A stretch of DNA of 37,508 nt from Candidatus Kaiserbacteria bacterium. Lineage in GTDB: Bacteria; Patescibacteriota; Minisyncoccia; Phycocordibacterales; UBA2100. How positions within the stretch are numbered: the first letter of the stretch is position 1; each line of letters starts with the position of its first letter. The DNA lies in assembly GCA_016867375.1 (NCBI GenBank), contig VGJQ01000010.1:1-37508 (forward strand), read 5' to 3'. Position numbers and translations under genes: made by a program. A model generated the notes under the pieces. It had not been told where the DNA came from and ran no database searches. It saw only the letters and a program-made list of their open reading frames with translations. Shown here piece by piece: positions 5,623 to 37,508 of the stretch.

Positions 5623-5643
5623 GGCACAAGTCAGACTTGTGCC
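5623..5643. repeat. 21-bp palindrome, AAGTC-A-GACTT core, left flank of RAYT
   Basis: This is a perfect palindrome with 10-bp arms GGCACAAGTC around a central A. It is identical to 6567-6587 and abuts the 145-bp element copy A directly. Confidence 0.85.
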
Positions 5644-5788
5644 TTAGAGCCTGTTCATAAGGCTCACTTCTGCATATATGACTTTTGGTCATGTATGCAA
5701 GTGTGCACTTATAAGTTCAACACAAAATGAACGGGCCCATACGTGTAGTCCACACATAACGGGTACGTTATTTGTGGACGAGCCCTTA
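5644..5788 (+). repeat. Palindromic element, copy A (long form, 145 bp)
   Basis: The left end is TTAGAGCCTGTTCAT and the right end GAGCCCTTA. The outer hairpin pairs the left GTTCAT with ATGAAC. A nested hairpin pairs GCATATATGAC with GTCATGTATGC. The second hairpin (GTCCACACATAACG, loop GGTA, then CGTTATTTGTGGAC) is preceded by GTAG. The last three bases are the TAA stop codon of the RAYT gene on the minus strand. It is one of eight related copies in the window. Confidence 0.9.
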
Positions 5789-6547
5789 CCAATCTTCCAA
5801 AAAAATGTTGCTGTGCTCCTCTCGGATTTCCTTTGAATTCATATGCGTCATAAGCATATCCCAAGAAGCTGTCTTGAATGTCGATCCTTCCGTAACACCG
5901 AGGGAACGTAAATGTGCCATGTCAATAATGGGAGAAGCGCTTTTGAAAGCATGCGTTTGGAAACTGGTAAATGGATACTCTTTCGCCCATTGCCACGCGG
6001 TATCATAGTCGCGCAATGCTTCCCGTAATCCCCCTGGATATAACTCAAATACGTTTTTCACCGCGATGTACGGAACGATGTGATGGAAGTACGGATCAGA
6101 ATCAATGGTCCGACTTTTGTATGCTCCTTGGAAAATACTTCCCTTCTCGTCATATTTTTCATTAAAGGCAGCACTCATACTTCCGCACAGTCGCTGCATA
6201 AATTTTGAGATGCCGCCCTCCCGAATCTCTTGGAGCAACAGATGGAAATGGTTTGGCATGAGCGTCCACGCAAGTATCGCCACCAAAGGATCTCGCTCGG
6301 GCCAATGATCTGGTCGTATAAACAATCGGGAGTCAAGGCACAAGTCTGACTTGTGCCTCTCTGGACTTGGAGAAGACTGGTGCTCGCGGCGATGTTTTGT
6401 TTGATGTGAATCGTTGAGCAGATACAAGATCCGCGCAAAGCGCCAACGATCCGCTTCATCACGGACAATTTCCATACCCCGTGCTCCACGTTTCACTACA
6501 TGAACCACAGAGCCGACCCCAAATGGCTCAACTCTCATCAGCGCCAT
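5786..6547 (-). CDS. REP-associated tyrosine transposase (RAYT, Y1 HUH family)
   Basis: This single-strand DNA transposase cleaves and joins hairpin-bearing DNA through a 5'-phosphotyrosine link. The 253-residue product opens with FGVGSVVHVVKRGARGMEIVRDE, the usual RAYT N-terminus. It carries the HUH motif MPNHFHLLLQ (His100 and His102) and a conserved region DPYFHHIVPYIAVKNVF with the candidate nucleophile Tyr160. An in-frame GTG at 6571 lies within the flanking palindrome, so ATG at 6547 (or 6538) is more likely. Residues about 64-70 (RHKSDLC) are encoded by an internal copy of the flanking 21-bp palindrome, exactly seven codons. The TAA stop is the last triplet of element copy A. The gene is the only transposase in the window and a candidate mover of its repeats. 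Confidence 0.9.
   Translation of the reverse strand: MALMRVEPFGVGSVVHVVKRGARGMEIVRDEADRWRFARILYLLNDSHQTKHRREHQSSPSPERHKSDLCLDSRLFIRPDHWPERDPLVAILAWTLMPNHFHLLLQEIREGGISKFMQRLCGSMSAAFNEKYDEKGSIFQGAYKSRTIDSDPYFHHIVPYIAVKNVFELYPGGLREALRDYDTAWQWAKEYPFTSFQTHAFKSASPIIDMAHLRSLGVTEGSTFKTASWDMLMTHMNSKEIREEHSNIFLEDW
6337..6357. repeat. 21-bp palindrome inside the RAYT gene
   Basis: The arms are the same GGCACAAGTC as the flanking copies, with a central T instead of A. The 21 bases are in frame with the transposase and encode seven residues in the variable loop before the HUH motif. Confidence 0.85.
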
Positions 6548-6566
6548 TATAGTGGCGTTTGCAGTT

Positions 6567-6587
6567 GGCACAAGTCAGACTTGTGCC
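6567..6587. repeat. 21-bp palindrome, right flank of RAYT
   Basis: This is identical to 5623-5643. It lies about 20 bp upstream of the RAYT ATG, in its promoter or leader region. Confidence 0.85.
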
Positions 6588-11044: not shown

Positions 11045-11073
11045 TCTGTCAAAAGTCAGACTTTTGACAGACA
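11045..11073. repeat. Palindrome with AAGTC-A-GACTT core, GTCAA-type arms (29 bp)
   Basis: The arms GTCTGTCAAAAGTC pair perfectly around a central A. The central 11 bp are the same as in the RAYT palindromes, while the outer arms differ and still pair. It lies in the divergent intergenic region between the M29 gene and the plus-strand gene at 11239. Confidence 0.85.
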
Positions 11074-11083
11074 CCCTTACTTA

Positions 11084-11154
11084 GGTGTCGAGAATGAATA
11101 TAGTTGTCAAAAGTCAGACTTTTGACACTTTTAACCACTACATTCTCGACACCT
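11084..11154. repeat. 71-bp inverted-repeat element enclosing a second GTCAA-type palindrome
   Basis: Fourteen-bp perfect terminal inverted repeats (AGGTGTCGAGAATG at 11084-11097, its complement at 11141-11154) flank a 21-bp palindrome at 11106-11126. That palindrome has the same sequence as the core of 11045-11073. The arrangement resembles a very small MITE. Confidence 0.8.
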
Positions 11155-11798: not shown

Positions 11799-11943
11799 TT
11801 AGATCCCGTTCATGAGGCTCACTTCTGCATACATGACTTTTGGTCATGTATGCAAGTGTGCACCTATAACTTCAACACAAAATGAACGGGCCCATAAGTG
11901 TAGTCCACAAATAGCGAGTACGTTATTTGTGGACGAGCCCTTA
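11799..11943 (+). repeat. Palindromic element, copy B (long form, 145 bp)
   Basis: It has the same architecture as copy A: left end TTAGATCCCGTTCAT, nested hairpin GCATACATGAC/GTCATGTATGC, GTAG, second hairpin, and right end GAGCCCTTA. The terminal TTA is the TAA stop of the coiled-coil gene at 11941. It lies between convergent gene ends. Confidence 0.9.
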
Positions 11944-13269: not shown

Positions 13270-13381
13270 ATACCATCTCCAAAATATATTGTCCGGGTAA
13301 AAGTACTTGTTTATAATTCGCGGCCGCGAATCATAAACAAGTACTACAAAAACACAGGAACGGGTTTGTTGGGAATGGTAT
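13270..13381. repeat. 44-bp near-perfect palindrome with flanking inverted repeats
   Basis: 13302-13345 is a 44-bp palindrome (centre ATTCGCGG/CCGCGAAT, arms AGTACTTGTTTAT) with a single mismatched pair. It lies between element copies C and D and is bracketed by ATACCAT at 13270-13276 and ATGGTAT at 13375-13381. No gene was found in 13191-13381. Confidence 0.75.
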
Positions 13382-13494
13382 AAGGGCTCGTCCATGAATG
13401 CTAAGGGCTCGTCCACAAATTAACGTACCCGTTATGTGTGGACTACACTTATGGGCCCGTTCATTTTGTGTTGCAGGTATTTATGAACGGGACC
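13381..13494 (-). repeat. Palindromic element, copy D (short form) with an extra partial end
   Basis: The main copy is 13402-13494. A second TAAGGGCTCGTCC end at 13381-13393 precedes it, giving two tandem ends 21 bp apart. The other end (GAACGGGACC) runs directly into the T-tract of the helicase terminator. Confidence 0.85.
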
Positions 13495-13527
13495 AAAAAG
13501 CAGGCGGCCCCTTGAGGGGCCGCCTGC
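13495..13527 (-). terminator. Factor-independent terminator after the DEAD-box helicase gene
   Basis: A perfect 12-bp stem (GCAGGCGGCCCC with its complement, loop 4 nt) is followed on the minus strand by TTTTTGG, immediately before element copy D. Confidence 0.9.
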
Positions 13528-16832: not shown

Positions 16833-17816
16833 TTAATTAGTTGCTGTCGATGTAGTAGTAGGAGCGGGACGTAATGCACGCACCAACGGTATCACATCCA
16901 TAAGGGCTTGGCGCGCAGCGCGAATCTTGGCACTCACATCCTGCACTGAAGCGCGGACAGCCTCAAATGCGGCCTTCGGATCACTGCTTACGGTCATAGA
17001 GGCGTACTGTGTCTTGGCGGTGTCCAGGGCTGTGACGGCTTCCGCGATCTTCCCGGTCGCCGTATCGAGTGAAGCCTGTGCAGCAGCTGTATCAGCACCG
17101 GATGCAGCAGCACGATCAATGATGCCATCAAGCTTGGTAGCGAGATCGTTGAGTCGACCTATGGCATCTTCAAGCTTTTCGACCATGGCGGAGAAGAATT
17201 GCTCGATATTTTCGCCCTTGCGTTCGCCGAGCTTCTCCTTGAGTGCATCGCGACGCTCTTGTGCTCCCTCTTTGAAGGCTTCACGTTTCTGCATCAGCAC
17301 GGCTTTTACTTCCCCGCGCCTCGCTTTAAAAGCATTCTGTAATTCTTCGCGCTTTTCCATCATAGTGTCTTTGATATCTGCGCGCTTTTCTTGCATGTGG
17401 GTCTTTATATCCTCGCGCTTCATCTGCATGGTGTCTTTGATTTCGTCACGCTTTTCTTGCATGTTGGTCTTTACGGTCTCACGCTTTTCCTGGATATTGG
17501 TCTTTATATCCTCGCGCTTCATCTGCATCGTGTCTTTCACTTCGGTACGCTTGTCTTGCATGTTTTGCTTGGCAGTATCGACATGCTCTCGCATCTCCTG
17601 CCGTACCGCGTCTGCTTTTTCCCTTAATGCCGGGCGTACCGGAGGCTTCTGACCAGGTGACGGCGGCATACCGCTTCCTGTGGGAGCTGAGCCACCGGTC
17701 GGGACCGTCCCCGTATCGGTATGCGCATACGCCGCTTGTGCGAAGAAAAGCGCCGACATGAGCAGGGCAAGCGCGGCGAGCCGGATCGCCGTGTGCTCGT
17801 TCGTAGTGGATATCAT
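16833..17816 (-). CDS. Exported protein with long 11-residue-repeat coiled coil, module copy 2
   Basis: The 327-residue product has a signal peptide (about 1-32, LAALALLMSALFFAQAAYA) and a Pro/Gly linker. About 140 residues of near-regular repeats follow, of the type DTMQMKREDIKT / NMQEKRETVK. A 22-residue double unit (MQMKREDIKT plus MQEKR) occurs twice almost exactly. The C-terminal domain (KLDGIIDRAAASGADTAAAQASL) is shared with the gene at 11941, and both end in a Thr-rich tail. Eleven-residue amphipathic repeats usually form extended or membrane-surface helices. ATG at 17816 was chosen because the frame upstream adds 18 residues that do not fit a signal peptide. Function unknown. Confidence 0.85.
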   Translation of the reverse strand: MISTTNEHTAIRLAALALLMSALFFAQAAYAHTDTGTVPTGGSAPTGSGMPPSPGQKPPVRPALREKADAVRQEMREHVDTAKQNMQDKRTEVKDTMQMKREDIKTNIQEKRETVKTNMQEKRDEIKDTMQMKREDIKTHMQEKRADIKDTMMEKREELQNAFKARRGEVKAVLMQKREAFKEGAQERRDALKEKLGERKGENIEQFFSAMVEKLEDAIGRLNDLATKLDGIIDRAAASGADTAAAQASLDTATGKIAEAVTALDTAKTQYASMTVSSDPKAAFEAVRASVQDVSAKIRAARQALMDVIPLVRALRPAPTTTSTATN

Positions 17817-17892
17817 ATGATTATTCGTGCTGCTATTTAATATGATGTCAGCATAACACCCCTCTGACACGTCTCTGTGATATTATCCCCAT

Positions 17893-21195: not shown

Positions 21196-21233
21196 ATATG
21201 CTATCGACGCGCTATAGCGACAAAATAGCATAT
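21196..21233. repeat. 38-bp double cruciform repeat, copy 1
   Basis: Outer arms ATATGCTAT (21196-21204) and ATAGCATAT (21225-21233) enclose the palindrome CGCTATAGCG (21210-21219). It has the same length and layout as 25781-25818. The intergenic stretch 21094-21310 around it shows no convincing gene. Confidence 0.8.
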
Positions 21234-21310: not shown

Positions 21311-21455
21311 TTAGGTCCCGTTCATAAGGCTCACTTTTGCATACATGACTTTTGGTCGTGTATGCAAGTGTGCACTTATAAGTTCAACACAAAATGAACG
21401 GGCCCATAAGTGTAGTCCACACATAACGGGTACGTTATGTGTGGACAAGCCCTTA
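21311..21455 (+). repeat. Palindromic element, copy E (long form, 145 bp)
   Basis: Left end TTAGGTCCCGTTCAT, nested GCATACATGAC hairpin, outer hairpin closed by ATGAACGGG, GTAG, second hairpin GTCCACACATAACG/CGTTATGTGTGGAC, right end AAGCCCTTA. The terminal TTA is the TAA stop of the gene at 21453. This copy is close to the consensus. Confidence 0.92.
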
Positions 21456-22559
21456 TTGATACTGGATGAATACGGGGCGTGGGGAGAGCTTGAGGAGATC
21501 TTGCGGAGTGAGGAGCTGTGTAGAGGGCGGCTTCATGTCGTTTTTATAGAAAATCTTGAATCCGGTAAATTGCACCGGCTCAGGCGCCACGAATGCATTA
21601 TAGGTGCCGATTTTGTTCTCCGGCGGGCCCCAGCCGTCCATATCGATCACGATTTGCACTTCGGGCAGCGGCTTGATCTGCTTGTAATTGGTGACCATGT
21701 CGCGCGTGAAGCGATGCACGACGAGGACTTTGGGTGGGAGATTGTGCTCTCGGACGAGCCGCGCGAGATACTCCGCCGCCCAATTGATGTCTGATGCATC
21801 AAATGTACCGATCACGGTGCCGGGCCTGCCGCCACGCTTCATGGAAAACTCCGGATCGATCGCCAAATGCACCTCCGGCATCTTGAAGTAGTCCTCATAG
21901 ATAGGCAGCTCGGTCTGTAGATTGCTCAAGCCGACTTGGATGTCCAGGATCACGATGCCGTCGACTTCCCGCGCGAGATCGAGCGCATGATCGATCTGAT
22001 CATCGGGCATGCGCAAGCGATACTTGCCGTCCTTACCCGCGCTCTCCTGCGCCGTGATCGCGATGTAGTCGATTGCAGGCATGATAGGGGTCGAAGGATC
22101 GGCAGCTTCCCACCGCGCGATCTCGCTGCGGAGCTTGGCAAGCATCTCTTCGCGCGGGTATTCGCCCAAGACACCCATGCCTTTGGAGTAGAAATTGCCG
22201 TAGTATGCAAGGATGCGCTTGAACGGGAGGATGGCACCGGGATTGGGATAGGCTGTCTGTACTGGCCAGAGCGAAGGGGTCGAGCTCGCTGTCGAAGATG
22301 CCGTCGGTGGGAGATTGGCGAGCGCGAGCATGCGCGCATCGTAGTCGGCTATGTCAAGAGGCGGCAGTGAGGGCGCTTTCACCGTGAATATCTCATTCGT
22401 CTCGGCTTCAGCTGATCGATAGTGCAAAAAAGGCGCACCCGGGTAGAAGAGGATGTATCCGATCACGAGCACGACAAGCCCCGTGGATATGCCGCCCGCA
22501 AAAAAGAGGAGTCGTCGCTCCCCTTCGGTATAGTCTCTGTATCGGCGGCGTTTGGACAT
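21453..22559 (-). CDS. Exported TIM-barrel-like (putative glycoside hydrolase-like) protein
   Basis: The 368-residue product has a basic N-terminus, one signal anchor (about 17-40, LLFFAGGISTGLVVLVIGYILFY) and a linker rich in Ser/Thr/Pro. A domain from about 112 onward shows alternating strands and helices: ILAYYGNFYSKGMGVLGEY, IMPAIDYIAITAQ, GIVILDIQVG, EVHLAIDPEFSM, VLVVHRFT, QIVIDMDG, and FTGFKIFYKND. This pattern and the HLAIDPEFSM motif resemble putative glycoside hydrolase-type barrels in envelope proteins of Gram-positive bacteria; activity is not demonstrated. The start is supported by CAGGAG 7 nt upstream of ATG. Its TAA stop is supplied by element copy E. Confidence 0.75.
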   Translation of the reverse strand: MSKRRRYRDYTEGERRLLFFAGGISTGLVVLVIGYILFYPGAPFLHYRSAEAETNEIFTVKAPSLPPLDIADYDARMLALANLPPTASSTASSTPSLWPVQTAYPNPGAILPFKRILAYYGNFYSKGMGVLGEYPREEMLAKLRSEIARWEAADPSTPIMPAIDYIAITAQESAGKDGKYRLRMPDDQIDHALDLAREVDGIVILDIQVGLSNLQTELPIYEDYFKMPEVHLAIDPEFSMKRGGRPGTVIGTFDASDINWAAEYLARLVREHNLPPKVLVVHRFTRDMVTNYKQIKPLPEVQIVIDMDGWGPPENKIGTYNAFVAPEPVQFTGFKIFYKNDMKPPSTQLLTPQDLLKLSPRPVFIQYQ

Positions 22560-25780: not shown

Positions 25781-25818
25781 ATATGCTATCTCGGCGCTAT
25801 AGCGTAGAGATAGCATAT
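25781..25818. repeat. 38-bp double cruciform repeat, copy 2
   Basis: Outer arms ATATGCTATCT (25781-25791) and AGATAGCATAT (25808-25818) enclose CGCTATAGCG (25795-25804). Copy 1 is at 21196-21233. In both places an element copy follows 49-77 bp later. The stretch 25625-25867 holds no convincing gene. Confidence 0.8.
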
Positions 25819-25867: not shown

Positions 25868-25962
25868 TTTGGTCCCGTTCATACATACGTTCAACACAAG
25901 ATGAACTGGCCCATAAGTGTAGTCCACACATAACGGGTACGTTATGTGTGGACGAGCCCTTA
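25868..25962 (+). repeat. Palindromic element, copy F (short form, 95 bp)
   Basis: Left end TTTGGTCCCGTTCAT, outer hairpin closed by ATGAACTGG, GTAG, second hairpin GTCCACACATAACG/CGTTATGTGTGGAC, right end GAGCCCTTA. The terminal TTA is the TAA stop of the gene at 25960. Confidence 0.9.
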
Positions 25963-35462: not shown

Positions 35463-35608
35463 TAAGGGCTCGTCCACAAATTAACGTACCCGTTATTTGT
35501 GGACTACACTTATGGGCCCGTTCATTTTGTGTTGCAGTTATAAGTGCTCACTTGCATACATGACCACAAGTCATGTATGCAAAAGTGAGCCTTATGAACG
35601 GGACCTAA
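35463..35608 (-). repeat. Palindromic element, copy H (long form, 146 bp)
   Basis: On the plus strand it reads TAAGGGCTCGTCC, second hairpin, CTAC, GGGCCCGTTCAT. A nested hairpin with long arms follows (GCTCACTTGCATACATGAC paired with GTCATGTATGC and AAGTGAGC), then ATGAACGGGACCTAA. The nested stem is the best preserved of all copies. It separates the His-rich gene from the membrane protein gene of the copper cluster. Confidence 0.92.
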
Positions 35609-37007: not shown

Positions 37008-37415
37008 TTAGAAAACTTTCGAGTGGAGGATCCCGTTAGAGAATAGCTCTTGGAATGGATTCGCGGGCGGCAGGTACTCCTTTCGTGCGTAGCGCGCAGG
37101 CACCCGTTGGAGAGAAGGGGGCCGGATGGGTATCTTATTGATCCAACATACAAGCCCGACGGAAAAAGCGAGGAGCAGTAACAAGAGCGACGCGATATCC
37201 TTTTGCCACGGCAGTGCGGCAAACGTGACCTTCCATGCCGCGATATGCTCAAGGGGCGATATCTGGCAGATCGCCGTCATACCCGGCATGAAGCAATCTG
37301 CATTCATACTGCCGTCCATTTCCATATGCATGCCAAGATGGGGCACACCGGAACCCCCGACAATGAGGAGGGTGATGATGAGTACTGAGAATATAGGGCT
37401 CGTCCGGAAATACAT
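37008..37415 (-). CDS. Membrane protein with Met/His/Cys-rich extracytoplasmic loop
   Basis: The 135-residue product has a first hydrophobic segment (about 6-24). An exported loop rich in metal-binding side chains follows (HLGMHMEMDGSMNADCFMPGMTAICQISPLEH), then a second helix (about 74-93, IASLLLLLLAFSVGLVCWI) and a Pro-rich tail. The Met/His/Cys loop beside a multicopper oxidase cluster suggests copper handling. ATG at 37415 is preceded by AGGA; a TTG at 37466 would add 17 basic residues. I recognise no named family. Confidence 0.75.
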   Translation of the reverse strand: MYFRTSPIFSVLIITLLIVGGSGVPHLGMHMEMDGSMNADCFMPGMTAICQISPLEHIAAWKVTFAALPWQKDIASLLLLLLAFSVGLVCWINKIPIRPPSLQRVPARYARKEYLPPANPFQELFSNGILHSKVF

Positions 37416-37462
37416 TGATCCTATAGACTTCAGTGCGCGTCGAATACGGCCGCGACGATTGA

Positions 37463-37503
37463 GCAAAAAGCGAGGCGTACCCGAGGTACGATGAGCTTTT
37501 TGC
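37463..37503. terminator. Hairpin at the right window edge
   Basis: GCAAAAAGC (37463-37471) pairs with GCTTTTTGC (37495-37503), and an inner GTACC pairs with GGTAC. It may be a terminator of a gene outside the window, or part of a leader. Confidence 0.4.
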
Positions 37504-37508
37504 GATTG

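Follow-up and report, generated by a model that had tools for sequence, protein, structure and literature searches.

The window analysed here is a whole stretch of 37,508 nucleotides (contig VGJQ01000010.1, positions 1 to 37,508), one contig of a Candidatus Kaiserbacteria genome of 1.008 Mb in 50 contigs (GCA_016867375.1). It carries one RAYT-type transposase gene, three copies of a palindrome that belongs to that gene's unit, a repeated element in a 95-bp and a 145-bp form, and a cut-off copy of a different element, E2, that has the same termini. The original prediction had counted eight copies of the 95/145-bp element in the window, and all eight (A to H) could be located, as listed.

5623..5643, no strand: RAYT-unit palindrome on the 3' side of the gene; one of 7 genome sites, matching exactly
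5644..5788, plus strand: copy A, 145-bp form, between the 3' palindrome and the RAYT gene; terminal TTA is the RAYT stop codon
5748..5779, plus strand: second hairpin of copy A (GTCCACACATAACGGGTACGTTATTTGTGGAC); GTAG at 5745-5748 overlaps the first paired base
5786..6538, minus strand: RAYT-type Y1 (HUH) transposase coding sequence, 250 aa, ATG start, from PF01797 and alignment with relatives
6337..6357, no strand: RAYT-unit palindrome, in frame inside the RAYT coding sequence; an insertion relative to homologues
6567..6587, no strand: RAYT-unit palindrome on the 5' side of the gene; one of 7 genome sites
11799..11943, plus strand: copy B, 145-bp form; terminal TTA serves as a stop codon
13096..13190, minus strand: copy C, 95-bp form
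13402..13497, minus strand: copy D, 95-bp form
21311..21455, plus strand: copy E, 145-bp form; its end coincides with the conserved stop codon of gene 21453-22559
25868..25962, plus strand: copy F, 95-bp form; terminal TTA serves as a stop codon
30702..30795, plus strand: copy G, 95-bp form, divergent, without GTAG
35463..35608, minus strand: copy H, 145-bp form
37396..37508, plus strand: cut-off E2 copy, terminus GGGCTCGTCCGGAAATACATT, no GTAG hairpin, continuing past the window end

The presence of a RAYT-type transposase was confirmed. The open reading frame 5786-6571 on the minus strand matched PF01797 (Y1_Tnp) with 38.2 bits against a cut-off of 23, and an alignment with 10 relatives showed H97-F-H99 and Y157 to be invariant, giving the gene the domain, the HUH motif and the catalytic tyrosine of a Y1 transposase. 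From general knowledge of these enzymes, we take Y157 to be the most likely catalytic tyrosine; we first considered that the residue might be missing from RAYTs of this clade and dropped the idea, as the invariant Y157 fits the usual position. With the HUH and tyrosine residues kept, the enzyme looks intact. The match to the NCBIfam model REP_Tyr_transpos reached only 36 bits, below its curated threshold of 80, and a PDB sequence search with the protein gave no match. Since the homologues begin at the ATG at 6538 (MRVEP...), the coding sequence is 5786-6538, shorter than the open reading frame. The gene had been called the only transposase of the window, and no second one was found among the main open reading frames tested with Pfam; genome-wide it is one of 13 Y1/RAYT genes. 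A search of the literature on Patescibacteria RAYTs or CPR MITEs returned nothing relevant. The window also contains a direct duplication of about 254 bp with 85% identity (177-712), and 33-bp tandem repeats (17317-17579) within an open reading frame (16833-17870) whose match, apolipoprotein-like and of the coiled-coil type, lies below the cut-off.

The palindrome of the RAYT unit, GGCACAAGTC(A/T)GACTTGTGCC, is 21 bp long. As had been predicted, it flanks the gene at both ends, and a further copy lies in frame inside. Its seven genome sites are the three of its own unit and those on contigs C1, C17, C23 and C45, the last with two mismatches. Each RAYT gene of the genome has distinct palindromes of its own, 19-52 bp long, at or near the gene ends and inside several genes, and the 12 sister units are similar to the window unit in layout, with different palindromes. 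The unit's own palindrome lies in frame within the coding sequence in the window RAYT and in two others (L031 and L037) and near the end of a further one (L034); these in-frame copies resemble Rickettsia palindromic elements. Because the palindrome stands at both ends of the gene and in frame inside it, recurs at four further genome sites and has counterparts in 12 similar units, it is a plausible RAYT substrate, and the window RAYT probably acts on it. The unit would thus consist of a transposase gene flanked, and once interrupted in frame, by the 21-bp palindrome that is its likely substrate. The proposal that the RAYT may mobilise the 95/145-bp element, the palindromes, or both is therefore plausible for the palindromes, and the evidence given below speaks against it for the element. 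A palindrome with a similar centre, TGTCAAAAGTCAGACTTTTGACA, occurs twice at a peptidase gene (11047-11069 and 11105-11127), with no RAYT nearby.

These flanks (GGCACAAGTCNGACTTGTGCC) carry no GTAG tag, which sets the unit apart from a REPtron, in which GTAG-tagged REPs flank the RAYT gene. They agree with the TIRtron or TIRYT, in which the inverted repeats on either side of a RAYT-like gene have no relation to GTAG REPs, a small family of such repeats being allowed (Di Nocera et al. 2013, PMC3733652). The likeness covers the self-complementary flanks, the low-copy dispersal of the repeat and the retention of the HUH and tyrosine residues. What differs here is that 13 units with different palindromes share one 1-Mb CPR-type genome, and that several genes carry their own palindrome in frame.

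With a covariance model built from 28 copies of the 95/145-bp element, we collected 64 full-length copies and some 15-20 partial or solo right-hairpin copies in the 1.0-Mb genome. Each element folds into two stable hairpins (z about -7 to -9) on the same strand, with the 5' arm motif GTYCAYAMATAAC common to both, and the long form carries a 50-bp inner hairpin, a further insertion into the loop of hairpin 1. Pairing in hairpin 2 is preserved by compensatory changes (744 pairs versus at most 716 in shuffles), and hairpin 2 also occurs in solo copies, some of which begin at TGTAG. Neither an Rfam search nor a scan of IMG/VR with the right end of the element gave a match. Other small repeats accompany the element in places: a nested array at C24:12000-12400 (L146) holds two inner-hairpin variants in tandem and further small hairpin insertions inside one element; a repeat of ~140 bp, X (CCAATGGTGTCTTTGCGAGC...), adjoins the right end of five copies in an apparently composite arrangement (C13:735, C41:2284, C44:1260, C20:13506 and C1:77979); and a 38-bp palindrome, ATATGCTATC...GATAGCATAT, lies 50-115 bp upstream of copies E and F (21196-21233 and 25781-25818) and also near C5:22502.

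Two copies of the element lie in repeats of which other copies are empty. The empty sites hold a single trinucleotide (TTA at C22:15029, seen in three paralogous repeats, and TTC at C15:14377), and filled sites have TTA on both sides, as in the short target duplication of a MITE, although the right-end TTA could belong to the element. The site logo, Y-TTA-N-C-R-A-Y (YTTA.NCRAY), is asymmetric and stronger in copies away from stop codons. TTA has a strict orientation with respect to the element, with 47 TTA to 2 TAA at the left end and 60 to 0 at the right, and the strict YTTA at the left end agrees with the insertion of IS200/IS605-type elements (PATEs) 3' of a strand-specific tetra- or pentanucleotide. 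Outside stop codons, the TTA had changed 13 versus 5 times at the two ends, an asymmetry considered as a way to tell the mechanisms apart and not significant (p = 0.085). Nested empty sites, conserved stop codons and the copy number together show that the element is mobile, with a precise TTA target.

Of the 64 copies, 21 have a terminal TTA that serves as the in-frame stop codon of a converging open reading frame of at least 90 codons, and for copy E this codon is precisely where nine orthologues in relatives stop. The right end regenerates TTA (TAA on the other strand), so that the element can occupy stop codons without damage. Among the TTA sites of the window that are non-coding or TAA stops, 18 of 89 are stops, so about a third of insertions on stops is roughly what survives the loss of in-gene insertions; this share mostly reflects survival under selection. 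Copy A fits this pattern. It had been placed within the RAYT unit, between the left palindrome and the transposase stop codon, and it does lie there (5644-5788, plus strand), its TTA being the stop. In the 12 sister units, the 3' palindrome starts -25 to +20 nt relative to the stop codon; in the window unit the distance is 142 nt, a gap explained by insertion of the 145-bp copy A exactly at the stop codon. By its position, copy A inserted secondarily at the RAYT stop codon, which it occupies without damage; 20 other genes have a copy on their stop codon likewise.

In copies A-F and H the second hairpin has GTAG at its foot, and copy G lacks it; the count of seven in eight that had been reported is correct. 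This is not seven independent observations, because the copies share one ancestor. Genome-wide, GTAG is present in 54/64 copies (35/36 young, 19/28 older), and its mean divergence is 0.070 versus 0.077 at an average position of the element. Its G is paired with C in 49/58 copies, and therefore the tetranucleotide is no free 5' foot. In its place, the homologues of the element in G034, G035, G039 and MHLS01000030 carry different feet (GACT, CTAA, GTAA). With a divergence near the average and absence from the homologues in these four other Lloydbacteria, GTAG lacks the conservation of a recognition motif. TnpA-REP enzymes studied experimentally depend on GTAG to varying degrees (PMC8266576), so these data oppose a fixed recognition signal and are compatible with a guide-like role. 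The sequences thus argue against GTAG as a fixed recognition signal of the element.

The element resembles the GTAG REP/RAYT system (REPtron, TnpA-REP; PMC8266576) in its high-copy hairpin preceded by GTAG and in C next to T near its ends. A GTAG REP is a palindrome of 20-40 bp with an unpaired GTAG at one of its ends; here the tetranucleotide is partly paired and unconserved in homologues, the unit of 95-145 bp contains another hairpin and has termini of its own, and no RAYT is flanked by the element hairpin as its own repeat. Like REPINs, the paired inverted REPs, the element has two hairpins per unit, a high copy number and extragenic positions. It differs from them in that GTAG is internal and on one hairpin only, rather than at each outer foot, and in having TTA and terminal inverted repeats as its borders.

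Proximity and co-occurrence were evaluated as well. The element lies within 200 bp of 2/13 RAYT genes versus 13/39 genes of the window, so there is no special RAYT-element association beyond chance. None of the Y1 genes in the four element-bearing genomes (13 + 22, that is, 35) is bounded by element ends, save for insertions beside the gene; a PATE would have its TnpA gene bounded by the same ends. Among 36 same-genus genomes searched for both, with a clade relative defined by at least about 170 bits, the element occurs in 3/11 clade-positive genomes (G000, G034 and G035) versus 0/25 clade-negative ones (Fisher p about 0.02, uncorrected for kinship). The expected correlation of this RAYT clade with the element thus exists nominally; against it stand eight same-genus genomes with the clade and no element, and the reverse case, G039, which has two element homologues and only distant RAYTs (32% identity), the clade being absent. 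The element is limited to 4/52 same-genus genomes, with a high copy number only in that of the window. The proposed link of the RAYT to the element through GTAG did not stand: copy A is accounted for by the stop codon, proximity is at chance level, and GTAG has average divergence and is missing in homologues. The adjacency of the RAYT gene and a GTAG-bearing element is probably a coincidence.

The conserved part of the element is its termini: one reads TTA followed by GGNCYCGTYCAYAAATAAC, and the other carries this in inverted form. Compared with the right end GGGCTCGTCCACAAATAAC as its reverse complement, the left end GGTCCCGTTCATAAATAAC is identical at 15/20 positions, a value reached in 0/200,000 shuffles, and the terminal motif is retained in G034, G035, G039 and MHLS01000030. 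The same termini bound E2, a different element of about 180 bp without the GTAG hairpin, which has copies on C12, C13 and C29 and the cut-off copy at 37396 of the window; in 397 genomes of the order, the E2 terminus was found solely in the window's genome. They also bound an element at C1:64520, again with no GTAG hairpin and with TAA flanks on both sides, and mini-forms of 34-54 bp hold little beyond the two ends. For E2 and the C1:64520 element, both orientations of TTA are found. Termini shared in this way, among elements with different interiors and among species, make up the anatomy of a MITE family. As in bacterial MITEs (RUP, NEMIS and Nezha, listed in PMC3733652), the unit falls within 70-300 bp and is non-coding and gene-adjacent, with terminal inverted repeats and a short target repeat; it differs in its strictly oriented, asymmetric target, in its imperfect repeats and in that no mobilising transposase was found in our searches.

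Overall, we consider it rather likely that the element is a non-autonomous miniature transposable element of the TIR type, targeting TTA and separate from the RAYT unit, with a DDE-type mobiliser as the probable agent. The 95/145-bp repeat has imperfect terminal inverted repeats of about 20 bp and inserts at TTA, leaving TTA on both sides. From the shared termini we infer that it was moved by a TIR-recognising transposase, probably of the DDE type, which is no longer detected in the genome. No gene of DDE_Tnp_1 (PF01609), the DDE family searched, was found in the window's genome, and limited searches gave no autonomous partner with the element termini. Solo left ends, considered as borders of a longer autonomous element, all proved to be mini-forms, remnants or E2-type, and a left end 0.8 kb from a solo right end encloses a gene that reads like ribosomal protein L27, not a transposase. 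IS5-type DDE elements have a 3-bp TNA target. Similar to these is a DDE_Tnp_1 gene in another genome (G035:C30:10685-11143, L169), with TTA flanks, outer termini loosely similar to those of the element, and the terminal sequence G(A/T)ACC(T/A)ATCCAC(T/C)ATCTCC. It was rejected as the partner, since its inner termini differ from the element and are closer to the ends of repeat Z. Z is another miniature family (TACCATTCCC...GCGGCCGC...GGAGATGGTA), present in the window at about 13271-13380 (minus strand), on the right flank of copy D, and at C19:2200-2500 (L147), where one copy lies within the loop of an element; it has 3-bp TTA/TAA duplications in both orientations.

The strict TTA orientation and the asymmetric target are not explained by a symmetric DDE reaction, from which both orientations would be expected, and a single-strand mechanism therefore stays a candidate. 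Likewise, the covariation in hairpin 2 is as expected if folded strands matter, and it counts against the DDE reading. A tentative alternative is that the element moves single-stranded through a Y1/HUH enzyme other than the window RAYT, either a lost TnpA of the IS200/IS605 type or another RAYT, which would recognise the end hairpins, with the foot of hairpin 2 guiding cleavage between C and TTA or directly after TTA. Besides the orientation and the covariation, the two same-strand hairpins with their common arm motif agree with such an enzyme, as do the related feet GTAA in three other lineages, the 13 Y1 genes of the window's genome and a canonical IS200-type TnpA in G035. The targets of IS200/IS605 elements are not known to continue 3' of the insertion point, as that of the element does. 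Also against this alternative, E2 and the C1:64520 element bear these termini, lack the second hairpin and take both TTA orientations, 0/35 Y1 genes in the four element-bearing genomes are bounded by the termini, and the replication-strand bias of the copies is weak, with nothing clear per contig or by GC skew. In its favour again, the right end, and often the left one too, shows C next to T, the dinucleotide cleaved by TnpA-REP under GTAG guidance (PMC8266576). We regard as unlikely a mixed case in which DDE-like inverted termini go together with a strict one-strand move into a 9-nt asymmetric TTA target and regeneration of the stop, by an HUH enzyme or a transposase type new for CPR bacteria.

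That the window RAYT itself mobilises the element through GTAG and the second hairpin is improbable. Its intact HUH and tyrosine residues, the near-constant GTAG in young copies (35/36; 54/64 in all) and the solo copies of hairpin 2, some starting from TGTAG, would suit it, but its own palindromes are different and untagged, copy A is a stop-codon insertion, GTAG is neither specially conserved nor present in homologues, and eight genomes with the clade and G039 dissociate enzyme and element. The suggestion that the repeat is immobile and serves at gene ends as a regulatory RNA or a bidirectional terminator hairpin has the stable hairpins and the many copies at 3' ends of converging genes on its side and is scarcely credible, being contradicted by the empty sites, nested insertions and precise TTA junctions, by the restriction to 4/52 same-genus genomes with high copy in one, and by the lack of an Rfam match.

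Taken together, with a MITE-like element separate from the RAYT unit as the preferred reading, these results remove a tempting but weak link between the RAYT and the GTAG hairpin, and they illustrate that adjacency misleads when a mobile element targets stop codons. A Lloydbacteria-type genome of 1 Mb can hold 13 RAYT units, each with palindromes of its own, and more than 60 copies of one nested miniature element. Such a genome is a rich natural system for asking which substrates Y1 enzymes act on.
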